64,000 nt of DNA from Flavobacteriia bacterium 40-80 (GTDB lineage: Bacteria > Bacteroidota > Bacteroidia > Flavobacteriales_D > Crocinitomicaceae), in the NCBI GenBank assembly GCA_001899145.1, contig MKVF01000006.1, forward strand, positions 124,001 through 188,000, in the 5' to 3' direction. The notes beneath the pieces were generated by a model. The model was not told the origin of the DNA and ran no database searches. It saw nothing but the letters and a program-made list of their open reading frames with translations. Within the stretch, counting starts at the first letter, position 1, and the number at the start of each line of letters is the position of its first letter. Below are positions 1,747-33,119 of this stretch, piece by piece. The position numbers were made by a program, and so were the translations under genes.

Positions 1747-3780
1747 TTATATCAACGTGGCATATTTTTTTCCGTAATACAGCATCTGTTCCACAAATCC
1801 CTGTTTGTTGATCAGCTTCACATCAGTGATTTTGCCATTCGCATCTTTTACCAGCTCGTAAGTTGGATTCACAAAACCGCTGTATGGTGCGATGTTCAAA
1901 GGTTTAACACGTTGTAATACCTGCTCGTGTGTTGCTTTGTCCACTTTTGTTCCGTAGTTTTCCACAAGAGCTTTTCCGGCAGCGTAATCGCCTTCGGATT
2001 TGATGCGTTGAATTTCTCTCAGCAGCTCACCGAAAAGGACACGTAATTTATTGTAATCTTTGATATCGTAATAGATTTTTCCGTTCTTTATTACTTTCTC
2101 GATTACTTTGTCTTTCTGTCCTTTTTCAAACACCCATGCTGCCACCAGCTGACGGTTTTGCATGTGCTCTTCTTCCAGGTGGTTGCCTAATTCCAGGCGC
2201 TGTAATTGTGTTAATAAGCCATTTCGGATATAGGAATCATATTCCGCTTTTCCGACTTCAAGTGATGGCATTAATCCGATATTAACCAGTTTTTCATCCA
2301 GCAGGAAGTACAGGGCAACTAAGTCAGCGCGAGCTTCTTCCAAAGTGCTGGCAAAGTTTTTCAATGTTTCGTTGGGCTGGCCGACACCTTTATTAATTTG
2401 TCCTGACGCGTGTCCGATCACTTCATGCAGCGCAGTGTGTAATTTTCCTGCTAATGCAGCATGTTTTTTACCTCGTTCGATTTCTTCTTCATCGTGAGCG
2501 AATTCATTCAGCATTCCCGGTCCGCTTGCTTTGTCATAAGCAGTAATGATATTTCCTAAGCTTACGGATTTGGAACCGTGCTTTTCACGAATCCACTCGT
2601 TATTCGGAAGGTTTACACCAATAGGAGTAGAAGGCGAACAATCACCCGACTCACTAGCTACCTGTACCACTTTATAGCTGACACCGGTTACTTTCGCTTT
2701 TTTGTGTGCAGGAAGAATAGAAGAATTGTCTTCAAACCATTGTGCATTTGCTGCAACAACAGACATTTGTTTGGAAGCTTCGAAATCGTTGATTTCAATA
2801 ACACTCTCAAAAGTAGCTCTTTTTCCGATCGCGTCACCATATACTTCGATGAAGCCTAAGATGTAGTCAATATCACCTTCGGTTGCGTGTGTCCAGAGGA
2901 TATTATATTCGTTCCATAATTTCAGGTCACCTGTTCTGAAATAATCAATCAGCTTCAGCAATGCTTTTTTCTGGGGTTCATTTTCAGCATATTTAACGGC
3001 TTCTTTCAGGTTTTCGATCATCTTATCCATTGCCTTTCCGTAACGCCCGCCACTTTTCCATACATCTTCCGCCAGCTTGCCGTCTTTCAGGATCATGGTG
3101 GAATTCAGGCCGTATTCGATCGGCTCATGGTCGTTTTTGTCAATTACTTTTGAATAATATTCCTCGACCTGTTTTTGAGTAACACCTTCTCCGTAAAAGT
3201 TATTCGCAGATGCAGCAATCATGTCTTTATTGCTGTCTTTTACTTTTCTTTTTGCATACAGAGAAGGATTGAAAATCGCTTCAATGGCTTCGTTACTCAA
3301 AGAAGCATTATTTTCTTTCAGAAGCTTCTGGAAGTACTCTTTGCTGAATTCTGGCTTGAATTTATCCATTCCGTAATGATGGTGCAGACCATTTGCGAAC
3401 CAGAATTGTTTTGCGAATGTCAGGAATTTCTGATAATCCTCGTTTTTCTCATTTTTATAGTTTCCTACAATTGTTTCAAATGCTTTCCTGATTTCCAGAT
3501 TGTATTTGAAATTTTGGTCGTAATGAATGTCACGTCCGTAATGTCCTGCTTCTGACAGGTAATAAACCAGCAATTTTTGATTCAGCGAAAGGTTTTCAAA
3601 TCCTTTGATATCATAGCGCAGCACCTGGATGTCTGCAAACCGGTCAACAATAATATCACTGTTATTTTCAGCGATTTCTTCTGTTTCTTTCATATTATTT
3701 TGTTCTGAATGTTCATTTTTACAAGCGCTTAACGTTAGTGTGAGCGCCAAAAAAGAAAAAGGGACGATGTTTTTTCTCAT
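1747..3780 (-). CDS. dipeptidyl-peptidase III family (M49) lipoprotein
   Basis: A 677-residue zinc peptidase of family M49, predicted to release dipeptides from peptide N-termini. The zinc motif HEVIGH is at residues 452-457, the six-residue HExxGH form typical of M49, and the second family motif EEARAD is at about 481-486. The N-terminus ends in the lipobox LSAC (Cys20), so the enzyme should be membrane-anchored and act outside the cytoplasm, unlike the cytosolic eukaryotic enzyme. Its length fits the bacterial (Bacteroides-type) members. It is monocistronic with its own terminator at 1692-1720. Confidence 0.93.
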   Translation of the reverse strand: MRKNIVPFSFLALTLTLSACKNEHSEQNNMKETEEIAENNSDIIVDRFADIQVLRYDIKGFENLSLNQKLLVYYLSEAGHYGRDIHYDQNFKYNLEIRKAFETIVGNYKNEKNEDYQKFLTFAKQFWFANGLHHHYGMDKFKPEFSKEYFQKLLKENNASLSNEAIEAIFNPSLYAKRKVKDSNKDMIAASANNFYGEGVTQKQVEEYYSKVIDKNDHEPIEYGLNSTMILKDGKLAEDVWKSGGRYGKAMDKMIENLKEAVKYAENEPQKKALLKLIDYFRTGDLKLWNEYNILWTHATEGDIDYILGFIEVYGDAIGKRATFESVIEINDFEASKQMSVVAANAQWFEDNSSILPAHKKAKVTGVSYKVVQVASESGDCSPSTPIGVNLPNNEWIREKHGSKSVSLGNIITAYDKASGPGMLNEFAHDEEEIERGKKHAALAGKLHTALHEVIGHASGQINKGVGQPNETLKNFASTLEEARADLVALYFLLDEKLVNIGLMPSLEVGKAEYDSYIRNGLLTQLQRLELGNHLEEEHMQNRQLVAAWVFEKGQKDKVIEKVIKNGKIYYDIKDYNKLRVLFGELLREIQRIKSEGDYAAGKALVENYGTKVDKATHEQVLQRVKPLNIAPYSGFVNPTYELVKDANGKITDVKLINKQGFVEQMLYYGKKYATLI

Positions 3781-4009
3781 AGTTTACACTTTTGATGAAT
3801 TTTCCGTTTAAAGTTAATTATTATCATGGTGAAAAGAGAAAAAAATTGAAATTGAACTGAAAAAAGAGGTTGAAAGGTAAAATAAGGGGACGACGGAGTT
3901 AATTCTATAGGAAATAAACAGTAACAGTCCTGAAAATTACTTTTAAGCCCGGTGCATAACAATTGTTGAAATCTTTTCTTAAAAGACATTTAACATACCA
4001 AATAATAGT

Positions 4010-4017
4010 TAACTTTG
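4010..4017 (+). promoter_or_regulatory. -7 promoter box for the fur-purA cluster
   Basis: TAACTTTG matches TAnnTTTG exactly and ends 16 bases before the ATG of the Fur-family gene. The -33 element is weak. The rest of the 253-base gap 3781-4033 shows no gene; a short reverse frame there has no family features. Confidence 0.6.
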
Positions 4018-4033
4018 TGCTTTACCTAGAGAG

Positions 4034-4504
4034 ATGTTGACAGAAGATTTACAGTCGAGAGTTAAAGACATTTTTTCAGCTTATCTGGAGCAGAACGGTC
4101 ACCGCAAAACTCCGGAGCGTTTTGCAATTCTTGCTGAGATTTATAATTACAGCGGTCATTTTGATATCGAATCACTTTATATCAAGATGAAAAATAAGAA
4201 TTACCGTGTTTCCCGCGCGACTTTATACAATACTATCGAATTGCTTCTGGCATGTAGCTTAGTCCGCAAACATCAATTTGGTAAAAACATTGCTCAATTT
4301 GAAAAATCTCATGGCTCAAAGCAGCATGATCATGTTGTTTTAACGGATTCAGGCGAGGTTTTAGAATTCTGCGATCCCCGGATCCAGCAGATAAAAGCAA
4401 CGATCGAAGAGATTTTTGATGTTAAAATTTTACACCATTCGCTTTATTTCTACGGTGTGAAAAATAATGAGAAGAAACCGGAAAATCAGCCGGTTCACCA
4501 ATAA
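4034..4504 (+). CDS. Fur-family transcriptional regulator
   Basis: A 156-residue winged-helix metalloregulator of the Fur/PerR/Zur family. It shows the family order: [14 protein letters not shown] helix region, the recognition helix [14 protein letters not shown], then a dimerisation domain with the histidine cluster [11 protein letters not shown]. The C-terminal CxxC pairs that hold structural zinc in many Fur proteins are missing, as in a subset of Bacteroidota homologues, so the metal sensed cannot be named. It leads a forward cluster with a STAS protein and purA, 11 bases ahead of the next gene. Confidence 0.9.
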
Positions 4505-4515
4505 ATCAGTTTACA

Positions 4516-4854
4516 GTGGATTTTGAAGTAAAATTTATCAGCGATGATAGTGTTGTTTGTGAAATCAGAGGCCGTTTACTGATCGATGACGAGGTGAACA
4601 AAATTCTGTCGGTACTGGAATCACATCTGGAAAACAACATTATTCTGGACTTAGGACAGCTGACGTATATTTCAAGCGCCGGGCTTTCTCTCTTTATCAG
4701 GTTGTTGACCCGTACCCGTATTCACAATAAAAAGATTGTTCTTGTCAATCTCCAGGAAAATGTAGAAAAATTATTCCGGATAGCAAAGTTAAACGATATT
4801 TTTGCGATCTCGGATTCCATAGAAAACGCAGTAACTATTATTAAAAACAAGTAA
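4516..4854 (+). CDS. STAS-domain anti-sigma factor antagonist-like protein
   Basis: A 112-residue single-domain STAS protein of the SpoIIAA/RsbV type. The hallmark is the LDLGQLTYISSAGLSLFIRLL region, where one serine of SSAGL is the usual phosphorylation site. The frame begins with GTG at 4516 and no ATG is near. It ends in a TAATG overlap with purA, so the two are translationally coupled. No cognate anti-sigma kinase or phosphatase is present in the window, so its partner is unknown. Confidence 0.85.
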   Translation: MDFEVKFISDDSVVCEIRGRLLIDDEVNKILSVLESHLENNIILDLGQLTYISSAGLSLFIRLLTRTRIHNKKIVLVNLQENVEKLFRIAKLNDIFAISDSIENAVTIIKNK

Positions 4855-6125
4855 TGAGTGTAGATGTATTATTAGGTCTTCAGTGGGGAGACGAAGGAAA
4901 AGGTAAAATTGTGGACGTTCTGACGCCTCAATATGATATTATTGCCCGTTTCCAGGGAGGACCAAATGCAGGACATACGTTAGAATTCGAAGGCAACAAA
5001 CACGTGCTTCATACAATTCCTTCCGGAATCTTCAGAAAGGAAGCGATCAATCTGATCGGTAACGGTGTTGTTATTGACCCGGTTGTTTTCAAAAAAGAAA
5101 TAGACAAGCTGGCTCCGTATAACCTTGATTTAAAAAATGTGCTGCTGATCTCGAAAAAAGCACACTTGATCATACCAACACATCGTTTGCTGGATGCCGC
5201 TTCTGAAACTGCAAAAGGAAAAAATAAGATCGGTTCAACATTGAAAGGAATCGGACCTACTTATATGGATAAAACAGGAAGAAATGGTCTTCGTGTTGGT
5301 GATATCTTTTCCCCGAATTTCAAAGAGAAATACCAGACATTGGTGGATAAACACACTTCCATGCTGGGACATTATGAAGGTTTTGAATACGATTTATGTG
5401 ATTCTGAACCTGAATTTTTCGAAGGAGTTGAGTTATTACGCTCATTAACATGTGTTGATTCAGAACAATACATCAATGAGGCGATTAAAGCAGGAAAGAA
5501 AATTTTAGCGGAAGGAGCACAAGGTACTATGCTGGATATTGATTTTGGTACGTATCCGTTTGTGACCTCTTCTAACACTGTTACAGCCGGAACCTGTACA
5601 GGACTTGGTATTGCACCGACTAAAATCGGAAATGTGATTGGTATTTTCAAAGCTTATTGCACACGTGTGGGATCCGGACCTTTTCCTACAGAACTTTTTG
5701 ACGCAGACGGAGAAGCAATCCGCCAGGAAGGAAGAGAATTTGGTTCTACTACAGGTCGTCCGCGTCGTTGTGGCTGGATAGATCTGCCGGCAATGAAATA
5801 TGCGATCATGATCAATGGTGTGACGGAATTATCTATGATGAAAGCCGATGTATTGAGCGGATTTGATACAATAAAAGCCTGTACGGCTTATAAAATAAAC
5901 GGTGAATTAGTAGATTACATTCCTTTTGATATCGCAGATCATGAAATAGAGCCGGTTTATATAGATTTAAAAGGCTGGAAACAGGATCTGACAGGATTAA
6001 GTAATTACAACGAAGCACCGCAGGAATTAAAAGAGTATGTGTCGTTCCTTGAAAAAGAGCTTGAAGTTCCGGTAACAGTTGTTTCCGTTGGGCCGGACAG
6101 ATCTCAGACGTTAAACACGAAGTAA
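4854..6125 (+). CDS. purA: adenylosuccinate synthetase
   Basis: PurA catalyses the GTP-dependent condensation of IMP and aspartate to adenylosuccinate, the first committed step to AMP. At 423 residues it has the normal length. Visible signatures are QWGDEGKGK (residues 10-18, GTP/IMP loop), NAGHT, the IGPTYMDKTGR segment and GTYPFVTSSNT. The start codon overlaps the stop of the STAS gene by one base. The fur-STAS-purA-ostA order suggests one transcript from the promoter near 4010. Confidence 0.98.
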   Translation: MSVDVLLGLQWGDEGKGKIVDVLTPQYDIIARFQGGPNAGHTLEFEGNKHVLHTIPSGIFRKEAINLIGNGVVIDPVVFKKEIDKLAPYNLDLKNVLLISKKAHLIIPTHRLLDAASETAKGKNKIGSTLKGIGPTYMDKTGRNGLRVGDIFSPNFKEKYQTLVDKHTSMLGHYEGFEYDLCDSEPEFFEGVELLRSLTCVDSEQYINEAIKAGKKILAEGAQGTMLDIDFGTYPFVTSSNTVTAGTCTGLGIAPTKIGNVIGIFKAYCTRVGSGPFPTELFDADGEAIRQEGREFGSTTGRPRRCGWIDLPAMKYAIMINGVTELSMMKADVLSGFDTIKACTAYKINGELVDYIPFDIADHEIEPVYIDLKGWKQDLTGLSNYNEAPQELKEYVSFLEKELEVPVTVVSVGPDRSQTLNTK

Positions 6126-6127
6126 AA

Positions 6128-7702
6128 TTGACAGGAAATTCAAAAATATCATTTATTAAAATTGCGCTTTTTATCAGCGCAATTTTTTTGCTTTTTCCAA
6201 TTGGATTAAAGGCACAGAAAGGTGTTATTGAATTATTGCCGGGAACACAAAAGCTGACATACGACAGCAAATCCGGCGCTCAAAAGCTTTTGGGCGGTGG
6301 TGTCAACCTGAATTATGAAGGAAATAAAGTGTATTCCGATTCCGCTTATTATTACGAAAATAAAAAGCTGATCAAGGCTTACGGACATGTGCACGTTACC
6401 AAGAACGATTCTTTAAATCTTTACTGCGATTCGCTTTGGTATTATACGGATACAAAAAAGGCAAAGCTGTTCAGCAGGGTGCGTGTAATGGACAATGAAT
6501 ACCGTCTGACGACCAATTTGCTGGATTATGATGCCGGAAGCGGGCTGGCAGTTTACCAGACAAGAGGAAAAGTGGAGAATCTGCTGAAAAATGAAGTGCT
6601 TACAAGCATCAGAGGTTACTTGTATCCGAATGAAAAAAACTTCCATTTCAGCGGAGATGTCCGTTACCGGAGTGATTCGCTGGATATGGATACCGATACG
6701 CTTCAGTATAAATACATAGAAAAAAAGGTCTATTTCTTTGGAGAAACAGTTATTAAAACAACTGATGCGGACATGTACTGCAATAAAGGCTGGTATCACA
6801 CGGAAAAACAGGATGCTGTGCTGGAAGACAATGCGTTTGCCATTCAAAACGGAAAGCAGATTTGCGGGGACAGTCTTTATGTGAGTGATTCTGAGAAAAT
6901 GGCTATCGGGCGAAAAAATGTTCATTTTATAGATACAGCGAATAAAATGGAATTTCTGTCACAAATGGCCTATTTTTCCGAGAAGCAACGGAAAGGGTTT
7001 ATAACGGACAGCGCCTGTATCATTTACCAGCTGAAAGACGACACTTTGTACATTCACAGCGACAGCATCTGGATCTATACCGATTCATCCAATAAGCTGG
7101 AACGTGCGGAATTGTTTTGGGATGTACAGATTTACGGAACAAAAATCCAGGGTTCCTGCGACTCCATGACCTTAGACAAGCCGATTGAACGAATCACGCT
7201 TCACCGGGAGCCAATGATGTGGAATGAAAATTCAGAGCTAAAAGCAGACACCATGTTTGTTTTTATAAATGATTCAGTCATCCGGAAAGTTGATCTGATC
7301 CAGCGTTCGACAGTAGTAATGGAGCTTGATTCCGGTAATTATTATAACCAGGTAGGAGGAAAGCTGATAGAAGCCTTTTTCAGAGAAAATAAGTTGATAC
7401 GCGTTGAAGTCAACCAAAATGCCCAGACGAATTTCTTTCCGCAGGATACTTTACGAAGCGATACGCTTGTGGAAATCAAGCGCCAGGGTATGTCGCGCTT
7501 GTATGCCAGCAGCCTGAAAGTATATCTTGACAGCGGAGAAGTGACAGGAGTAACGTATTTCGGAAATCCGGACGGCGCTTTTTACCCGATCCCTTTGATT
7601 CCTAAAGAGGAGCTGTTTGTCAAGAATTTTTCTTTTAACCCTGAATTCAGGCCTAAAACCCGAAAGGATATTTACCGGAGAAAACGGGGATTTAAGAAAT
7701 AA
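6128..7702 (+). CDS. OstA-like LPS export / organic solvent tolerance protein
   Basis: A 524-residue OstA family protein (LptA/LptD N-terminal fold) expected in the periplasm or outer membrane in LPS transport. A signal peptide with a clear hydrophobic core ends around LKAQ (about residue 30). The body is a long series of short beta strands with repeated YxxDSxxYY and DSLxxxTDT patterns, typical of the beta-jellyroll. The start is TTG at 6128, two bases after the purA stop. The following gene is convergent and ends five bases away. Confidence 0.85.
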   Translation: MTGNSKISFIKIALFISAIFLLFPIGLKAQKGVIELLPGTQKLTYDSKSGAQKLLGGGVNLNYEGNKVYSDSAYYYENKKLIKAYGHVHVTKNDSLNLYCDSLWYYTDTKKAKLFSRVRVMDNEYRLTTNLLDYDAGSGLAVYQTRGKVENLLKNEVLTSIRGYLYPNEKNFHFSGDVRYRSDSLDMDTDTLQYKYIEKKVYFFGETVIKTTDADMYCNKGWYHTEKQDAVLEDNAFAIQNGKQICGDSLYVSDSEKMAIGRKNVHFIDTANKMEFLSQMAYFSEKQRKGFITDSACIIYQLKDDTLYIHSDSIWIYTDSSNKLERAELFWDVQIYGTKIQGSCDSMTLDKPIERITLHREPMMWNENSELKADTMFVFINDSVIRKVDLIQRSTVVMELDSGNYYNQVGGKLIEAFFRENKLIRVEVNQNAQTNFFPQDTLRSDTLVEIKRQGMSRLYASSLKVYLDSGEVTGVTYFGNPDGAFYPIPLIPKEELFVKNFSFNPEFRPKTRKDIYRRKRGFKK

Positions 7703-7707
7703 ATCCT

Positions 7708-7926
7708 TTATACTATCGGTTCGGCTTTAAAGCCCTTACTCTTGATAAGCGCTATTATTTCCTCTTCTGTAATGCCTTCTGACTTTACGGTAAGTATTTT
7801 GTCTGCGTTTGTAATGTTCACATCCCATTCGGAGATTCCTGCTGCCTGATCCAGGCCGGGTTTTACTTTTGATACACAACCACCGCAATTAAGATTGGTT
7901 TTGAACTGAAACTCTTTATTTTCCAT
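7708..7926 (-). CDS. small heavy-metal-associated (HMA) domain protein
   Basis: A 72-residue single HMA domain, CopZ/Atx1-like, with the metal site LNCGGC (Cys14 and Cys17) after the first strand. This fold binds Cu(I) or similar soft metals and hands them to P-type ATPases. It lies about 7 kb from the copper-ATPase-like gene at 14926-17343 and could serve it, but no direct operon link is visible. It is convergent with the ostA-like gene with only five bases between stops. Confidence 0.87.
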   Translation of the reverse strand: MENKEFQFKTNLNCGGCVSKVKPGLDQAAGISEWDVNITNADKILTVKSEGITEEEIIALIKSKGFKAEPIV

Positions 7927-8033
7927 TGCTTTAAAATTGATAGTACAAATTTCGGTACAATAGCATTAGAAATTGTTGTAGAATTTCCGGTTTGATTTGT
8001 GAGATTTACGGTGAAATAACAGGGTTTTCCGCA

Positions 8034-8948
8034 TTATTTCTGAATGAGCAGCCATTTTATCAGCTCATTATTGTCCACGATGCTCCAGGAATGAGGATGC
8101 CGGGTATTGTTGGGTTTTCTGTATCCTTTGTTCTGTGTTAAAATTAATTCGGCTTTTTTGTTGCCAAGTCTGTTCAGTTCGTTAATGAACGCGGAGCATT
8201 CTGTCACATTCATGGATGTCAGATCCGCGTTTCTGTTTGTTAACCACCACTGGATATCCGGTTCGGAATATATTCTGACGGGAGTTTTCAGTATATTTTT
8301 TAAAGCCCTTTGTGAAGTATCCGAAAACGAGTAGGGTGAGAGCCTGTAATAACTTTCAATATTTGTTTCCGGTGTACCATTTGCCTCTTTTTCAATTCTG
8401 TCGATCATGTAAACATTCTCTCTGTTTACTTCCGTATCTTTAGGCAGCCTGATATCTCTTTTGGCGGAATTGTAAAATCTTTCGAAATCAAGCGGCGGAT
8501 CAATCGCAAAGACAGCGACAGGCTTGATCGTTGCATTTTCAGCGTATTTGATCGCACAGCTTCCCCCGATTGAAAAGCCACCGATGAAAAACCGCTGATC
8601 CATCAGCTTGTGTCTGCTGGTGACATCCTGCAGAATGGCATTGAGCGACTGCTGGCTTAAGCTGTCAACACCAAATGACAAAACCCCGTCCTGAAAGTTG
8701 GGAATAATTGTCAGAAGCCCGTTCTGTGCGGTTAATTTCGGGAGATCGGTTTGCAGAAATACACTTTCCGCAGTTTCTCCAAATCCGGGAATGAGAACGA
8801 TGTATCCTGTCCAGGGAAGCTTCGGCGGATAGATTATGGTGTAGCAGTTCTTGGTGCTGTCTGTTTTATCAAGATAAATTTTATCGGCTTTCTGACCGTA
8901 AACCGAAGTCAGAAAAAAAGTCAGTGCAATTAATAATATGTTTTTCAT
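8034..8948 (-). CDS. secreted alpha/beta hydrolase-fold protein
   Basis: A 304-residue protein with an N-terminal signal peptide (MKNILLIALTFFLTSVYGQ). The nucleophile elbow is GGFSIGG and the preceding strand IVLIPGFGETAES supplies the oxyanion region, which place it in the alpha/beta hydrolase fold. A DPPLDFERFY segment and a late RHPHSW histidine could complete a Ser-Asp-His triad. The substrate is unknown. A partial TTCTTTCC half-site like the response-regulator boxes lies upstream at about 8995-9003 but is not convincing. Confidence 0.8.
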   Translation of the reverse strand: MKNILLIALTFFLTSVYGQKADKIYLDKTDSTKNCYTIIYPPKLPWTGYIVLIPGFGETAESVFLQTDLPKLTAQNGLLTIIPNFQDGVLSFGVDSLSQQSLNAILQDVTSRHKLMDQRFFIGGFSIGGSCAIKYAENATIKPVAVFAIDPPLDFERFYNSAKRDIRLPKDTEVNRENVYMIDRIEKEANGTPETNIESYYRLSPYSFSDTSQRALKNILKTPVRIYSEPDIQWWLTNRNADLTSMNVTECSAFINELNRLGNKKAELILTQNKGYRKPNNTRHPHSWSIVDNNELIKWLLIQK

Positions 8949-9003
8949 CGTTTGTGTATTTACGTTGCAGTTGATAAGATCAAAGAACGCAACAGGGAAA
9001 GAA

Positions 9004-9816
9004 TTATTCGAAATTCTCTTTTATATTTTTTTTTGATCGTTTTTGGAACTTAAACGGATTTTCTATTACAATATCAAATGCTATGTAATGTACATTATAG
9101 GGATTTTTTCTGCCAATCAAATTGTTCATATATCCTATGCTGAAAATAAACGGCAGCGTTTTGGGTGAATACGAATAATATAATGAAAACCGGCTTTCAC
9201 GATAATTGAAGTCTGTCCAGGTACCGGGCGTATTTTCTTTGCTGACTGAAAATAATTGTTCTGAACTTAATGTTACAGCTTGTGTTTTCGCTTTGTTCAG
9301 TGAGGCTACAATTTGTAAACGAAAACGTGAGCGGAACTGAAAATTTTCATCTGCATTTTTAAAGTCGGGTGAATAGAATTTGCGGAATTCCTGCCTTAAT
9401 GTCGGTACAAATTTTATATAGGAAGTTTTGAGTATGTATGAAAGTCTGCTATACAAACGAAATTCCTGTTTTGATCTCAGTTTGTCGTGTTCGTAAGGAG
9501 AATTTTCTGAGTATTCGTCTTGTCTGCGGTAACTTAATGCAAATGAATACTGCCACGTTTTACGAGACTGATGATAGAATTCCTGGTTAAGAACAAAAAT
9601 TGCAGGTTTGTAAAACGGGTCGTAATTGTCCGGATTGCTTTTTCTCCCGACACCAATGTACGACATGGATTGCCAGCTTTTTTCGATCTCCTGCCGGATG
9701 CCAAAAGCAAACCAGCCTGCTGTGCGGGCTTTGCCTTCTCCAGGCGGGCTGATTTGCGAAAAGGCTTTGCCTGTAAACAAGCCAAAAAACAAAATGCTTA
9801 GGCAATACTTTTTCAC
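9004..9816 (-). CDS. DUF2490 outer-membrane protein
   Basis: A 270-residue DUF2490 family protein with a signal peptide ending around GKAFSQ. The rest is rich in alternating aromatic strands (RQEFRKFYSP, SRFSLYYSYSP), consistent with a small outer-membrane beta-barrel of unknown function. It follows the PepSY-like gene directly (stop at 9817, start at 9816), so the two form an operon reading from the box at 10341-10357. Several overlapping frames on both strands at 9530-9820 are shadows. Confidence 0.82.
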   Translation of the reverse strand: MKKYCLSILFFGLFTGKAFSQISPPGEGKARTAGWFAFGIRQEIEKSWQSMSYIGVGRKSNPDNYDPFYKPAIFVLNQEFYHQSRKTWQYSFALSYRRQDEYSENSPYEHDKLRSKQEFRLYSRLSYILKTSYIKFVPTLRQEFRKFYSPDFKNADENFQFRSRFRLQIVASLNKAKTQAVTLSSEQLFSVSKENTPGTWTDFNYRESRFSLYYSYSPKTLPFIFSIGYMNNLIGRKNPYNVHYIAFDIVIENPFKFQKRSKKNIKENFE

Positions 9817-10296
9817 TTAGTCGGCAACTTTGCTTAAAATAGCTCCTTCAGCATCAAAAGACACTTTCCATTCTTCGCTGAAAGATTTTAATTCAATTTT
9901 GTAAATTACTTTGTCGCCTTCTGTGATTTTTTCTACATCATCCACACGATAGTCTTTAAAATCGCTGTTGATTTTCGCCACTACTTTCTGAGGCAGATCG
10001 CTTTTGGAAATTTCTTCTTTGTGGCGAATTAACTTTCCTGTTTTGTCGTACCAGGCGTCGTGATCTGTTCCAAGCAAACCTATTTCAAATTCTACCTTGT
10101 AATGCTCTCCCTTGAGTTTCCATTCTACGTCATACGCTTTGGGAAACGATTTTTGAAAACTGTTTACAATTACAGATGGAACCTGGCTTTGCGAAATACG
10201 CTGTGCCAAGGCGGTATTGCTGAATAATGTCAACGCAAACAAACCCGTTAAAAATACTTTTTTGCAAATAGCATTTGTTGTTTGATTTCGCTTCAT
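9817..10296 (-). CDS. periplasmic PepSY-like domain protein
   Basis: A 159-residue secreted protein with a signal peptide ending near NTALAQ, followed by a tandem PepSY-like fold. The repeated pattern VPSVIVNSFQKSFP...VEWKLKGEHYKVEF and LPQKVVAKINSDFKDY...IYKIELK is the usual signature of the Bacteroidota PepSY_like family. These proteins are exported and often sit beside two-component systems; their biochemical role is not established. A TAACTTTG promoter box (10321-10328) and a response-regulator-type box (10341-10357) lie directly upstream. Confidence 0.88.
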   Translation of the reverse strand: MKRNQTTNAICKKVFLTGLFALTLFSNTALAQRISQSQVPSVIVNSFQKSFPKAYDVEWKLKGEHYKVEFEIGLLGTDHDAWYDKTGKLIRHKEEISKSDLPQKVVAKINSDFKDYRVDDVEKITEGDKVIYKIELKSFSEEWKVSFDAEGAILSKVAD

Positions 10297-10320
10297 TTCT
10301 TAAAATTTAAAATTATAATA

Positions 10321-10357
10321 CAAAGTTAAAAGCAACAATCTGGAAAGAACCGGGAAT
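10321..10357 (-). promoter_or_regulatory. promoter and response-regulator-type box for the PepSY-like gene
   Basis: On the reverse strand the -7 box is TAACTTTG (10328-10321). Upstream, 10357-10341 reads ATTCCCGGTTCTTTCCA, a direct repeat TTCCC-N6-TTCC with 11-base period. The same arrangement, with identical spacing to the -7 box, precedes the response-regulator gene. It sits where a -33 element would be, typical of promoters activated by OmpR/PhoB-type regulators. Confidence 0.65.
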
Positions 10358-10359
10358 TT

Positions 10360-11160
10360 TTAAGGTTCATAAATAATCCGCAAAAATGAATTGTAACTTT
10401 CATTCTTTTTATTTATCGGAATACCTGTAATTAAACCGATTGCCATTTTTTTGCTCAACTTAATTTTGACCTGTGGCCGGATAGTTATTTCAAATTTTCC
10501 GTTATTGATTTCTTTGTTCAGTTCGACACCAATAAAATGTTTGGTGTGTGGAATGGTATAAAGGAACGACGAGTTAATCTGCCAGTTAACGGCTAATTTA
10601 TTTGTTGCAAAATCATGTTCAAGCAAAGGTGAAGCGTAGATCAGTGTGTGAAAATTTTCGCCCCAGCGTTTAGCAGCAATAAAAAACGGATTATAAGCTG
10701 TGCCTGTAACTAGGTTGTTTTTGCCAAAATGTCTGAAGTCGGTAAATTCAACAAGTTGTGTGTAACCAACAGCTAACGTAGTTTTCAGCCTGGTTGAAAT
10801 AAAAAATGAATATTGTGTTGAAAATCGCAGGCATTCTAATTTGTTGTCAGGAATCTCAGCATTTTGTGCTGCTCTTTTGAAAAAAGAAAAATCAGCCTCT
10901 ACTTCAAAACCCAGGCGGTTGATTGGTGCAAATTCATATTCGACTAAAAAAGCATTTTTGTTATAATGTCTGAAGTTTGAAAAATCAAAACCTGCATTAA
11001 ACTCTTTTTCGCCTTTTCTCGCCCCCAAATCACGCACTAAGTCAAAATATAAAGGTTCTGCATGTGAAACCTTATCTGTTCTTACAGTTGTCTGAGTAAA
11101 ACCATTACCAGCAAACGTAACGATTGCAACAGCTGAGAGATATGTTTTTATCACGTTCAT
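10360..11160 (-). CDS. outer-membrane-like protein with conserved HAEPLYFDLVRD start
   Basis: A 266-residue exported protein; the signal peptide runs from MNVIKTYLSAVAIV to about GFTQ. The mature N-terminus carries HAEPLYFDLVRDLGARKGEKEFN, here split as HAEPLYFDLVRD and LGARKGEKEFN, a block I associate with Bacteroidota proteins next to PepSY/two-component genes. The remainder has the alternating pattern of a beta-barrel, including YEFAPINRLGFEVEADFSFF. The ATG at 11160 is preferred over 11175 because it begins the signal peptide. It follows the histidine kinase with its own box at 11184-11200. Confidence 0.75.
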   Translation of the reverse strand: MNVIKTYLSAVAIVTFAGNGFTQTTVRTDKVSHAEPLYFDLVRDLGARKGEKEFNAGFDFSNFRHYNKNAFLVEYEFAPINRLGFEVEADFSFFKRAAQNAEIPDNKLECLRFSTQYSFFISTRLKTTLAVGYTQLVEFTDFRHFGKNNLVTGTAYNPFFIAAKRWGENFHTLIYASPLLEHDFATNKLAVNWQINSSFLYTIPHTKHFIGVELNKEINNGKFEITIRPQVKIKLSKKMAIGLITGIPINKKNESYNSFLRIIYEP

Positions 11161-29137: not shown

Positions 29138-29170
29138 AATAGCCGGAAAGTTTAATTCCGGTTATTTTTA
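29138..29170 (+). terminator. intrinsic terminator after the aminotransferase
   Basis: AATAGCCGGAA and TTCCGGTTATT pair around a 7-base loop and are followed by T-rich sequence. It lies 17 bases after the stop codon. The rest of 29171-29303 shows no gene. Confidence 0.8.
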
Positions 29171-29303: not shown

Positions 29304-30215
29304 TCAGACAATCTTTTTACCAATATATCCAATCCAACATATCCGTTTGGTTTGATCAGGTACAAAATGCATTCTTTGACCATGTAAGGAGAAATTGCAG
29401 TGTAAAGAAAATAAACGAATTTCACTATCAGGACATACAATATTAAGACGATTGTTGAATTGATTTATTCTTGTTTGCGACTCTAACCTGGAATTACCTC
29501 CAAATGCATTTCTATCAAAATTACCGGTCCTCCAATTTGAAAAATAGTGATTCATTTCTATCAGACGATTTATAAGGTTTACAAGTAAATCACCTGAAAA
29601 ACTAGCAATCTGTTGTTCAATTTGAGAACAAAAAGATAATGATGGAAAAAGCTCCTGCCTTTGTATCCACAACATAGCTCCAGAGTCTATTTCTAATGCT
29701 TCAAGTTTGTTATCTCTTAAAATACTTTGATCTATATACGATTCATGATACTGAACAGAATCTCCATCGTATGCATGTCGTACTTCGACATTCTCCTCTA
29801 CTAATGAATTAGAGTCTTCATCTATATATTCCAATTTGATTGGTAAAGTTGTATGCTGCCATAATTGATCCATATCGAAGCTAATTGCTAACAAGTCATT
29901 TTCAAAGGCGTAGCCAAGACCTTTAGAATTTTCACCATTAAATGAGTAGTATGGATAATCTAGAATTAATGGTGACTTTGATACCATTGAAATAATAAGA
30001 TTTTTCAAATCCTTAGTCTGACCTGAAACCCATTGTTGGAATAGTAAATCTTTATGAAAGTTAAACTCTGAAAAACGATTTACAGATATGATACTAGCTT
30101 TTCTGTTATGCGACTTTCCAGCATTAATACACATTTTAAAAAATGAATCATATAGATTGGAAACTTCTGCTACGGAACATTCTTTAATTGAAAGCTCATT
30201 CAATACGAGTCTCAT
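29304..30215 (-). CDS. unknown protein, last gene of candidate defence cassette
   Basis: A 303-residue protein I cannot assign to a named family. It has no signal peptide or clear membrane helix. The final 35 residues, HCNFSLHGQRMHFVP then RICWIGYIGKK, resemble a C-terminal block seen in proteins encoded next to DUF3696-type ATPases. A conserved-looking IEMNHYFSNWRTGNF...NRLNIVCPDSE region precedes it. It starts one base after the ATPase stop codon, so it is cotranscribed and probably the effector or sensor partner. Its base composition is AT-rich, like the two upstream genes. Confidence 0.65.
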   Translation of the reverse strand: MRLVLNELSIKECSVAEVSNLYDSFFKMCINAGKSHNRKASIISVNRFSEFNFHKDLLFQQWVSGQTKDLKNLIISMVSKSPLILDYPYYSFNGENSKGLGYAFENDLLAISFDMDQLWQHTTLPIKLEYIDEDSNSLVEENVEVRHAYDGDSVQYHESYIDQSILRDNKLEALEIDSGAMLWIQRQELFPSLSFCSQIEQQIASFSGDLLVNLINRLIEMNHYFSNWRTGNFDRNAFGGNSRLESQTRINQFNNRLNIVCPDSEIRLFSLHCNFSLHGQRMHFVPDQTKRICWIGYIGKKIV

Positions 30216-30216
30216 A

Positions 30217-31320
30217 TTATATTAGCTTCATTAAGTTATTATCCCATTCATCAAAAAAACCATCAGGCCAGAAATCTATTCTTCCATCAGAATCTAGTTT
30301 CGGACAAGAAATTTTGGAAAAATGCTCAGAAGAATTTAAGTCTCTATGAAGGAAGAATATTTTCACGTTACTTGAAGGTATACCAGATGAAACGGCAACT
30401 CTTATTCCATTTAACACATGATCGCTATGTGTTTCCACGAACAGTTGAACTCCTAATTTAGAGACTAGAGCTAATAATTTACCCATTATTGATTGTCCTT
30501 TAGGATGTAAATGTGATTCAGGATTTTCAATTATCAAGATATCTCCTGATTTGGCTGATAATAGTGATACAATTACCGGTAAAACATACGTCAAACCAAA
30601 ACCGACATTGCTAGGCTTAATTTCATTTGTGAATCCGTCATTTGTTTCAAATTGATATTCTAATCGAACAGCGTCAAAACCTTTTAATTCCTCAACATTG
30701 ATTTTTGTTCCTGGGGTTATCTCACCCATCCAAGCCCATACTTGATGTATCAAAGTATTTGAACGTGAGTTTTTAAGACATAATTCTTCTGAAACCAATT
30801 CATTTCCGTAAACAGAAAGATAATGTGCAACAAACTCGCCTTTATTTCCAATATTTCCATTTTGAACAACTTCAAAATCAGATCTATCATAAAACTTTTC
30901 AGGAACAAATCTTTCTGCATTTAAATATTGGAAGTTTTGATTAAAAAGACTTATACTTTCGTAATCAATGTTTTCAGGTGCTTGGTTTTTATATGGTAAA
31001 ATGTCTGAATCTGAATTATAGGCAAAATCCCAATCAATAGTATTATTATTTTCAAATTCAAGAGAAAATATTATTTCTTCTCTTTTTGCGGATTGATAAA
31101 GAGCATCTTTACCTACTCCAACATCTACATAATTACCTTTCAAGGCTAAACCATTATTTTTTAAATAGCCGTTTTTGTAAGACTGTCTTAACAATAACAG
31201 GGTTTGTAACGCTGTTGATTTGCCCATACCATTTATTCCCGAAAATAAATTCAGGTTTGAACATTCAAACTTACCGTTCTCAAGAACTTTAAAGTTCTTA
31301 ATATCAATTTTTTTGATCAT
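30217..31320 (-). CDS. AAA/ABC-type ATPase with DUF3696-like C-terminus
   Basis: A 367-residue ATPase of the OLD/RecF-like ABC class. Walker A is GINGMGKST (28-36), an ABC-signature-like SNVGFGLTY is at about 237-245, Walker B is IIENPESHLHP (263-273), and the switch histidine is in ETHSDH (296-301). The C-terminal GFFDEWDNNLMKL matches the end of DUF3696 proteins. Such ATPases are frequent nucleotide-dependent sensors in anti-phage systems. Overlaps the upstream DUF262 gene by 17 bases and leads into the unknown 303-residue protein. Confidence 0.88.
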   Translation of the reverse strand: MIKKIDIKNFKVLENGKFECSNLNLFSGINGMGKSTALQTLLLLRQSYKNGYLKNNGLALKGNYVDVGVGKDALYQSAKREEIIFSLEFENNNTIDWDFAYNSDSDILPYKNQAPENIDYESISLFNQNFQYLNAERFVPEKFYDRSDFEVVQNGNIGNKGEFVAHYLSVYGNELVSEELCLKNSRSNTLIHQVWAWMGEITPGTKINVEELKGFDAVRLEYQFETNDGFTNEIKPSNVGFGLTYVLPVIVSLLSAKSGDILIIENPESHLHPKGQSIMGKLLALVSKLGVQLFVETHSDHVLNGIRVAVSSGIPSSNVKIFFLHRDLNSSEHFSKISCPKLDSDGRIDFWPDGFFDEWDNNLMKLI

Positions 31321-32785
31321 GATTCAATACCTCAGATATTATTTTTTTTATCTCTCTAAATCTTATTCTTACTTGTCCTACTCCACCAGTTCCTGAACTA
31401 ATTGCTCCCAAAAAATGATCATCGCTATTCATCAAGTTTAAAAACTTCGTATTCAGCAATTCTTTATTTTCAATTAGACCAACTAATTCTGCATCATTTA
31501 GTTTAGCTAATGAAGTTGACCAGACTTCAAAAAGAGCTTTATTAATTGGTTTTCTTCGTGTCTCAGTAATATCAAATCTCTTTCTGAAAGCATAGACATT
31601 AAATAATTCAAATGAAGTATTCATAGCTTTTGTAAAAATTTTTTGAATTTCGTTAAGTGATTTGTCATCTAACTTATTCAATTCAGCCATTGCTTCATTT
31701 AAATACGTGTCTAAGTCTGGTTTATAATTCTTAATCGGATCCTTCAGGTAAAAAGCAATGAATCGATTCACAAAGTCTCTATCCATCATGCGATCGGAGC
31801 TTATAGAATAAGTTGTAGCTTTTTGAAACTCATCGGATTCGGCTAATTGTCTCACTAACTCGGAGGCTTTTCCCTGATTAAGAGCATGTCTAATTTCTTG
31901 CGCTGATAATACTAGTCCTCCTGTGTTAATACGCTTGAAAACATTGTATTTTACTTTTTCTGGAGTTCCAGCATTAATAACATAGATTGTAATTTCGAAT
32001 TCTTCAATTCGTCGTTGTAAATCTCTAGGTAAATCGGAGAATTTAAAATTATTGTACTGATGCAAAAATTCTAGATTTTCCAATCTTAAATCCAAGTCTA
32101 TGACAAACCTTTTAAGTGCAGTTATCCGTTGAAGACCATCAACTATAAGCCATTTGTTGTCGTTAGATCCGTCAAAATAAAATGCGGGTAGAGGAAATCT
32201 AATTAGTATTGATTCAATTAGTCTGCTTTGTTTCGTATCATCCCATAATCCACCTTTTCTTTGAAATCCGGTTAAGAGATCAATCTCTTTATTTTTCAAC
32301 CTTTTAAAGATAGCTTCAAGTATCAGAGGTTTTGAAGTAATATCGACTAATTTTGGATCGAACGGTTCATCTATTATTGTATCAGAGCTGTCATCTTCTG
32401 CTTCTACATCTTCATTATATATATCAGTTTCAATATCATCATTCTTAACCGATTTCTCAATTTGTGAAGAAGTCGCGACACTTTTTATTTGATCTACGTT
32501 CAGGTCAGAAGTCGACACTCCTAATGCTGTTAAACTCCAAAGAGTTCTTTGATTACTTTCTATTAATCCCGCATTTTTCAAATAATAACGAGCCCAAGCT
32601 AGCCGATATCCAAGTTCAGTTCTTCCACCTTCTTGATGATTATGAATCTCATTCCTGTCTTCTTCACTAAGGTTTAGATGATCCGCTACATATTTTTCTA
32701 TTGCATAAATCGATGCAGTCCCTCCTGAAAATTTAATTGAATCAAGGGTTATTTGAAATAATTGATCAAATTTTGGAACTCCCAT
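31304..32785 (-). CDS. Mrr_N winged-helix / DUF262 fusion protein
   Basis: A 493-residue two-part protein. Residues 1-85 resemble the Mrr N-terminal winged helix (VPKFDQLFQITLDSI, RLAWARYYLKNAGLIES, LWSLTALG). An acidic linker (about 114-142) follows, then a DUF262 ParB/Srx-like NTPase domain (about 150-370) with LTGFQRKGGLW, VDGLQRITALK (motif DGxQR at 216-220) and FKRINTGGLVLSAQEIRHAL. DUF262 is the GmrS half of modification-dependent GmrSD endonucleases; no DUF1524 HNH nuclease domain is visible in the C-terminal 120 residues. Sits between a small XRE regulator and the ATPase. Confidence 0.87.
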   Translation of the reverse strand: MGVPKFDQLFQITLDSIKFSGGTASIYAIEKYVADHLNLSEEDRNEIHNHQEGGRTELGYRLAWARYYLKNAGLIESNQRTLWSLTALGVSTSDLNVDQIKSVATSSQIEKSVKNDDIETDIYNEDVEAEDDSSDTIIDEPFDPKLVDITSKPLILEAIFKRLKNKEIDLLTGFQRKGGLWDDTKQSRLIESILIRFPLPAFYFDGSNDNKWLIVDGLQRITALKRFVIDLDLRLENLEFLHQYNNFKFSDLPRDLQRRIEEFEITIYVINAGTPEKVKYNVFKRINTGGLVLSAQEIRHALNQGKASELVRQLAESDEFQKATTYSISSDRMMDRDFVNRFIAFYLKDPIKNYKPDLDTYLNEAMAELNKLDDKSLNEIQKIFTKAMNTSFELFNVYAFRKRFDITETRRKPINKALFEVWSTSLAKLNDAELVGLIENKELLNTKFLNLMNSDDHFLGAISSGTGGVGQVRIRFREIKKIISEVLNHDQKN

Positions 32786-32786
32786 T

Positions 32787-33002
32787 TTAGCTTAATAATT
32801 TAATTTCTTTACAAACCTCTTTCAACAACTCACAAGGATCAACATCTATCGCCAAAGCAATCAAATACAACTCGTCTACCCGCAATTTCGTGCTGGAGTT
32901 ATTTGTCAACTCACTTAATCGTGTTTTGCTAATCCCAGTTTTCCTGGAAACGTCTGAACGATTTACTGATTTTCGGGAAAGAAATAATCCTAATTCGGTC
33001 AT
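32787..33002 (-). CDS. small XRE-family helix-turn-helix regulator
   Basis: A 71-residue single HTH protein of the Cro/C1 type: LGLFLSRKSVNRSDVSRKTG then ISKTRLSELTN as recognition helix, and a final VDPCELLKEV. The frame extends to 33098, but the extra residues do not resemble an XRE protein and cover operator-like repeats, so the ATG at 33002 is used. It stops one base before the DUF262 gene and should regulate the whole cassette through the sites at 33046-33119. Confidence 0.85.
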   Translation of the reverse strand: MTELGLFLSRKSVNRSDVSRKTGISKTRLSELTNNSSTKLRVDELYLIALAIDVDPCELLKEVCKEIKLLS

Positions 33003-33045
33003 TATTGTCTGTTTTTCTGAACATAAATGTACCAAAACAGAACAA

Positions 33046-33119
33046 TTTTTCCGAAAATCTGAAAAATGATTTGGAATTTTATCCGAAATTCGATACATTT
33101 GTTTAGAAAATCGGATAAA
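33046..33119. promoter_or_regulatory. three related 18-bp operator-like sites before the XRE gene
   Basis: Three copies of one motif occur in 74 bases: TTTTTCCGAAAATCTGAA (33046-33063), TTTATCCGAAATTCGATA (33078-33095) and, on the reverse strand, TTTATCCGATTTTCTAAA (33119-33102). The shared core is TTTaTCCGAnnTTCnnnA. This arrangement between a self-regulated XRE gene and the divergent DUF763 gene is what cooperative repressor binding would need. Confidence 0.55.

Follow-up and report, generated by a model that had tools for sequence, protein, structure and literature searches.

A Menshen-type operon with an Mrr-type winged helix on its predicted sensor protein NsnA

The window analysed here, a 64,000-nucleotide stretch of DNA from Flavobacteriia bacterium 40-80, contains what is probably a Menshen-type anti-phage operon, one in which the sensor protein NsnA has acquired a winged helix of the Mrr type and triggers the toxin NsnC by way of the ATPase NsnB. 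The nsnA gene (31304..32785, - strand; 493 aa) encodes, in order, an Mrr_N domain, an acidic linker, a DUF262 domain and a helical domain. ORF analysis identifies it as a real gene residing within a tight operon, in which it is followed by nsnB (30217..31320, -), which overlaps nsnA by 17 nt and encodes a 367-aa AAA/SMC-like ATPase with a C-terminal DUF3696, and then by nsnC (29304..30215, -), which encodes a two-domain protein of 303 aa that is the predicted effector. The PADLOC profile for NsnA (PDLC03877) matches residues 107-488 of the 493-aa protein over profile positions 9-384 of 385 (E=3.5e-138), that for NsnB (PDLC03878) matches residues 1-367 of the ATPase (E=2.2e-119), and that for NsnC (PDLC03879) matches residues 1-302 of the third protein (E=1.6e-66). 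Because all three profiles match at approximately full length and in the proper order, nsnA-nsnB-nsnC is, as judged by its sequence, a complete Menshen system; Menshen is a known defence system, and an anti-phage role is predicted for this operon. The candidate explanations that nsnA is an orphan fusion gene or an artefact were rejected, since the operon is complete by PADLOC. NsnB matches AAA_15 and DUF3696 in Pfam (E=4.1e-16 for the latter) and retains both a Walker A motif (GINGMGKST) and a Walker B-like motif (LIIENPE); a scan of NCBI families returned only general ATPase families for the operon and nothing further.

The N-terminal domain of NsnA, residues 6-91 (32513..32770, -), matches the Mrr_N winged-helix domain (PF14338) with E=1.5e-16 and a score of 60.7 bits, the cut-off being 29.5, which bears out the first-pass annotation, where the first 85 residues had been likened to Mrr_N. 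This assignment is that of the Pfam profile alone. The AlphaFold2 model of NsnA has a mean pLDDT of 69, which drops to approximately 60 in the Mrr_N region, and residues 1-100 are too poorly modelled for a fold test. The acidic linker that had likewise been described between Mrr_N and DUF262 is placed at approximately residues 107-140 (32366..32467, -), a position inferred from the acidic sequence and from low pLDDT at 117-142. Beyond it is DUF262 (also GmrSD_N, a ParB/Srx-like NTPase domain) at residues 169-302 (31880..32281, -; PF03235, E=1.3e-20). The two motifs originally noticed in this domain are present, namely the nucleotide-pocket motif DGLQR at residues 216-220 (32126..32140, -) and FKRINTGG at residues 283-290 (31916..31939, -), and their key residues (D216, G217, Q219, R220, F283, R285, N287, G289 and G290) show no variation among seven homologues aligned from four phyla (Bacteroidota, Aminicenantes, Leptospirales and Streptomyces).

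The remainder of NsnA, residues 324-493 (31307..31816, -), is predicted to form an all-helical C-terminal domain, well modelled over approximately residues 370-490, in which no nuclease was found. Neither HNH nor DUF1524 is matched by Pfam anywhere on NsnA, even at E<=1, as had been proposed from the sequence. This absence is meaningful because the identical scan does detect HNH in a protein from another genome that combines DUF262 with that domain. The Mrr catalytic PD-(D/Q)xK domain likewise has no Pfam match on NsnA. No solved relative emerged from a sequence search of the PDB, and Foldseek with the NsnA model gave nothing useful. The best structural match is to residues 1-421 of BrxU (Z 7.3 over 283 residues, with an rmsd of 16.6 Å that reflects misplaced domains in the NsnA model), followed by SspE (Z 4.4). 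The DUF1524 nuclease of BrxU sits in its C-terminal remainder, beyond residues 1-421, and the C-terminus of NsnA thus corresponds to the helical part of BrxU. A hidden nuclease in this region was considered and rejected: there is no Pfam nuclease, and the only sensible structural matches are to the non-nuclease part of BrxU and to SspE. For the final 120 residues, where a nuclease fold had been named as the finding that would overturn the early view, the fold check uncovered only the helical, BrxU-like part.

The likely effector of the system is an RNase-fold toxin domain of NsnC, rather than a DNA nuclease. Although NsnC has no Pfam match, its AlphaFold2 model (four input sequences; pLDDT 77 on average, with block means of 67-93 over residues 190-303) places a RelE/YafQ/YoeB-like (BECR) toxin fold at residues 188-303 (29307..29654, -). 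In a VIA-align comparison of the model with solved structures, each of the 23 best rows is a RelE, YoeB, YafQ, HigB, ParE or similar toxin aligned to this segment. YafQ is matched with Z 8.3 over 83 of 90 residues at 2.7 Å, YoeB with Z 8.0, and HigB and RelE with Z 7.1, where a Z near 8 marks the edge of the range attained by unrelated folds. RelE and YoeB are also among the Foldseek matches of NsnC, none of which reaches E<0.001. In three other NsnC proteins, the same C-terminal slot is occupied by a Pfam-detectable YoeB toxin (E=5.4e-16, 3.4e-11 and 5.3e-10). The C-terminus of NsnC is predicted, from these models and comparisons, to be a RelE-fold toxin domain. The type of toxin domain found in the window is common to 11 NsnC, in which F195, H272, R281 and G299 are invariant, and H272 and R281 are candidate catalytic residues. 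No sequence-level link between this domain and either the YoeB-type NsnC or a named toxin family was obtained by hhalign profile comparison, Pfam or PDB profile search, and the protein, which ends in GYIGKKI, lacks the histidine that terminates YafQ. Residues 1-159 weakly resemble the PIN protein SSO1118 (Z 5.4, 107 residues), a likeness of the kind described for PtuZ by Gerdes (PMC11980606). A further six NsnC carry at the C-terminus another, unassigned domain, which ends in a similar way (TTGRNxxE in most of them), and are evidently equipped, to judge from these sequences, with a different type of effector. The first-pass annotation had supposed that cleavage would come from the partner proteins or that the system might act without cutting. 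The role that it gave to a partner fits the predicted toxin fold of NsnC, which is likely that of an RNase rather than of a DNA nuclease, so that action without cutting DNA is the nearer of its two options.

Similar comparisons can be extended to the N-terminus of NsnA across 41 Menshen loci, each with NsnA and NsnB, that were gathered by genome searches and include some near-duplicates. Their NsnA range in length from 370 to 625 aa. The PADLOC NsnA profile excludes Mrr_N, its match beginning only after that domain. Mrr_N occurs on NsnA at just two of the 41 loci, the window and Aureibaculum luteum (Pfam E=2.5e-13); the two Mrr_N parts are 50% identical over 102 aa, and the Aureibaculum protein also bears an additional domain of 130 aa. 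The fusion of Mrr_N to DUF262 is unusual. What the first-pass annotation missed is that the gene is nsnA of a known Menshen operon, where a missing DUF1524 is usual. Plasmid and phage matches to NsnA, among those listed, cover only the part after Mrr_N.

Other modules are found in the same slot. The NsnA of locus L106 (3977-5347) begins with HARE-HTH (Pfam E=5.2e-14), a winged-helix-related domain of restriction enzymes, and those of loci L050 and L054 have in common an N-terminal module of 170-205 aa (47% identity). This module also forms the N-terminal half of an HNH_2 nuclease whose gene comes immediately after the L050 operon (phmmer E=6.4e-14, ORF set). Taken together with Mrr_N and HARE-HTH, this sharing indicates that NsnA carries in its N-terminal slot modules that restriction enzymes also use, and at L050 one reader module seems, by sequence similarity, to be common to a restriction enzyme and the toxin system. 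The L050 locus (4376-7445, 1146-2273) has an overlapping C5 methyltransferase gene before its Menshen operon and the HNH nuclease after it. Elsewhere (L073:4524-6092), a DUF262 protein without an adjoining nsnB begins with an MTaX1 domain (methylase-associated X1; E=4e-28). In the literature searched, which did not extend to the survey of Menshen domain polymorphism, neither the NsnA variants with Mrr_N, HARE-HTH or the shared module nor the pairing with methyltransferases is described. The Menshen chassis itself is already known.

Of the 41 loci, three have a C5 cytosine methyltransferase within the flanks that were fetched (Aureibaculum, L050 and L054), and these are exactly the three with the longest NsnA and the longest N-termini. 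If random, this coincidence would have a chance of 1 in 10,660, a figure that concerns only three loci, was noticed post hoc and is affected by the near-duplicates among the loci. The methyltransferase gene overlaps nsnA in Aureibaculum (Pfam E=1.5e-85) and in L050 (E=3e-84). In L054, it lies 3 kb upstream and adjoins a LlaJI-type restriction enzyme (E=1e-67), to which it may belong; at this locus (2589-10644), the LlaJI-type restriction-modification genes are directly upstream of the Menshen operon. Between L050 and L054, identity amounts to 69% over 381 aa for the methyltransferases and to 36% for the full-length NsnA proteins, which fits a reader and a methyltransferase that travel together, as far as sequence comparison can suggest. 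No methyltransferase was found in the window operon or its flanks. The sole C5 methyltransferase found in the source genome is divergent, and its gene is on a small contig, close to mobile genes. The genome also encodes an ordinary Mrr of 305 aa (L111:4227-5144, contig C21), with a tyrosine recombinase gene slightly more than 1 kb away.

Upstream of nsnA is a gene for an XRE/Cro-type HTH regulator (32787..33098, -; Pfam HTH_26, E=7.4e-9) that ends 1 bp before nsnA and is absent beside all other Menshen loci examined. Its true start may be downstream of 33098, at an internal ATG approximately 30 codons later. Near the annotated start is an imperfect palindrome with 20-nt arms (33078..33119), equalled by 4 of 200 dinucleotide shuffles and thus weak, which could possibly be the operator of the XRE protein. 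A terminator-like hairpin follows nsnC (29143..29161, -), such sites being no commoner than expected by chance. The operon has a G+C content of approximately 0.32, compared with approximately 0.40 in its surroundings, and this low G+C suggests that it was acquired. Insertion was not demonstrable by an empty-site test, in which the DUF763 neighbour was found in only two of the relatives searched, without conserved synteny. No viral homologues were found, and a BFVD fold search with NsnC gave no informative match.

No settled account of the Menshen trigger was found in the literature searched. In the mechanism that we favor, the docking of NsnA onto invading DNA through Mrr_N would follow a logic like that of type IV restriction. 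Its target would most likely be modified DNA because the operon is without a DNA methyltransferase, and the absence of a neighbouring methyltransferase has elsewhere been taken as a sign of modification-dependence (PMC11037411). Several type IV restriction enzymes rely on a winged helix to detect methyladenine (PMC11037411), and Mrr_N of NsnA could, by its family membership, read DNA methylation. Binding to DNA would alter the NTP state of DUF262, as in SspE and BrxU, a step suggested by the conserved motifs. The change would then be passed on to the NsnB ATPase, which would free or activate NsnC, and the RelE-fold domain of NsnC would cut mRNA or otherwise poison translation, halting the infected cell. 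In more general terms, the N-terminus of NsnA may read DNA sequence or methylation and trigger an RNase toxin.

Conceivably, it is NsnA itself that attacks DNA. It would then behave as a type IV factor whose ParB/Srx-like DUF262 nicks DNA after binding through Mrr_N, leaving NsnC as an accessory. DNA nicking is possible for proteins of the ParB/Srx fold (PMC12839542), and PtuX has been termed a putative nuclease by Gerdes (PMC11980606). This arrangement is nevertheless unlikely, given that NsnA has neither HNH nor DUF1524, that its DGLQR pocket is of the NTPase-type DUF262, and that the clear YoeB toxins at the ends of other NsnC make that protein better suited to the role of effector. The Mrr_N domain could instead persist from a gene fusion as a passive relic, or mediate contacts between proteins, in either case without a part in recognition. 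Its rarity and its absence from most Menshen NsnA would be understandable in that case, but the identity that it has kept between two lineages and the repeated occupation of its slot by other DNA-reading modules make such a role very unlikely.

A somewhat more plausible arrangement, though still a doubtful one, follows the sequence-specific logic of restriction-modification, in which Mrr_N reads a site that lacks methylation and self DNA is shielded by a host methyltransferase encoded elsewhere. The overlap of nsnA with a C5 methyltransferase gene in Aureibaculum, the only other case of Mrr_N, and likewise in L050, is in line with this arrangement, as is the XRE gene of the window operon, a type of regulator found in many restriction-modification systems. 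Against it, the additional domain of the Aureibaculum protein could be the sequence reader there, no methyltransferase adjoins the window operon, and the only one found in the genome is the divergent gene among mobile genes described above.

The favored reading, in which NsnA senses modified DNA and NsnC is the effector, could be part of a broader scheme that we propose tentatively. Menshen would be a plug-in chassis in which NsnA borrows the DNA-recognition modules of restriction enzymes, sometimes along with a cognate methyltransferase, and recognition leads to RNA-cutting abortive infection rather than to DNA cleavage; the window would then contain a methyltransferase-free version that reads modified DNA. 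If the N-terminus of NsnA is indeed a swappable reader of DNA or its methylation, the trigger of Menshen becomes directly testable, and DNA recognition as in restriction-modification and RNA cleavage by RelE-type toxins would be joined in one device.

In relation to known systems, the window operon has the three genes, the gene order, the full-length profile matches and the lack of DUF1524 that characterize Menshen (NsnA-NsnB-NsnC; Millman 2022; PMC10952713), and differs from it by the Mrr_N domain on NsnA and the preceding XRE gene. DUF262 comes without DUF1524 in Menshen, Dazbog and PD-T4-2, according to a 2023 perspective, and loss of the DUF262 gene abolishes defence by Menshen and Dazbog (PMC10952713). 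As described in the ptuXYZ section of Gerdes 2025 (PMC11980606), that system combines a DUF262 protein without HNH and a P-loop ATPase with a third protein, whose N-terminus is PIN-like and inactive and whose C-terminus is YoeB-like (BECR). The missing HNH of NsnA is unsurprising, since DUF262 without HNH is usual in both Menshen and ptuXYZ. By the gene content given in that section, ptuXYZ and Menshen appear to be one system with two names. The window shares with it the DUF262 without HNH, the ATPase and the two-domain third protein, and differs in that Pfam does not recognize its toxin domain as a YoeB and that Mrr_N goes unmentioned in the ptuXYZ section. GmrSD, BrxU and SspE have in common with NsnA a DUF262 with DG(Q/L)QR, and the BrxU and SspE matches extend to its helical domain, whereas the DUF1524/HNH nuclease is missing from NsnA. 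Mrr_N is likewise common to NsnA and the type IV enzyme Mrr, whose catalytic (PD-QxK) domain NsnA is without. The winged-helix fusion type IV enzymes (PMC11037411) also resemble NsnA in their modular winged helix, which in them reads DNA methylation and is sometimes fused to an NTPase; their output is DNA cleavage, whereas an RNase toxin is the output predicted for the window operon.
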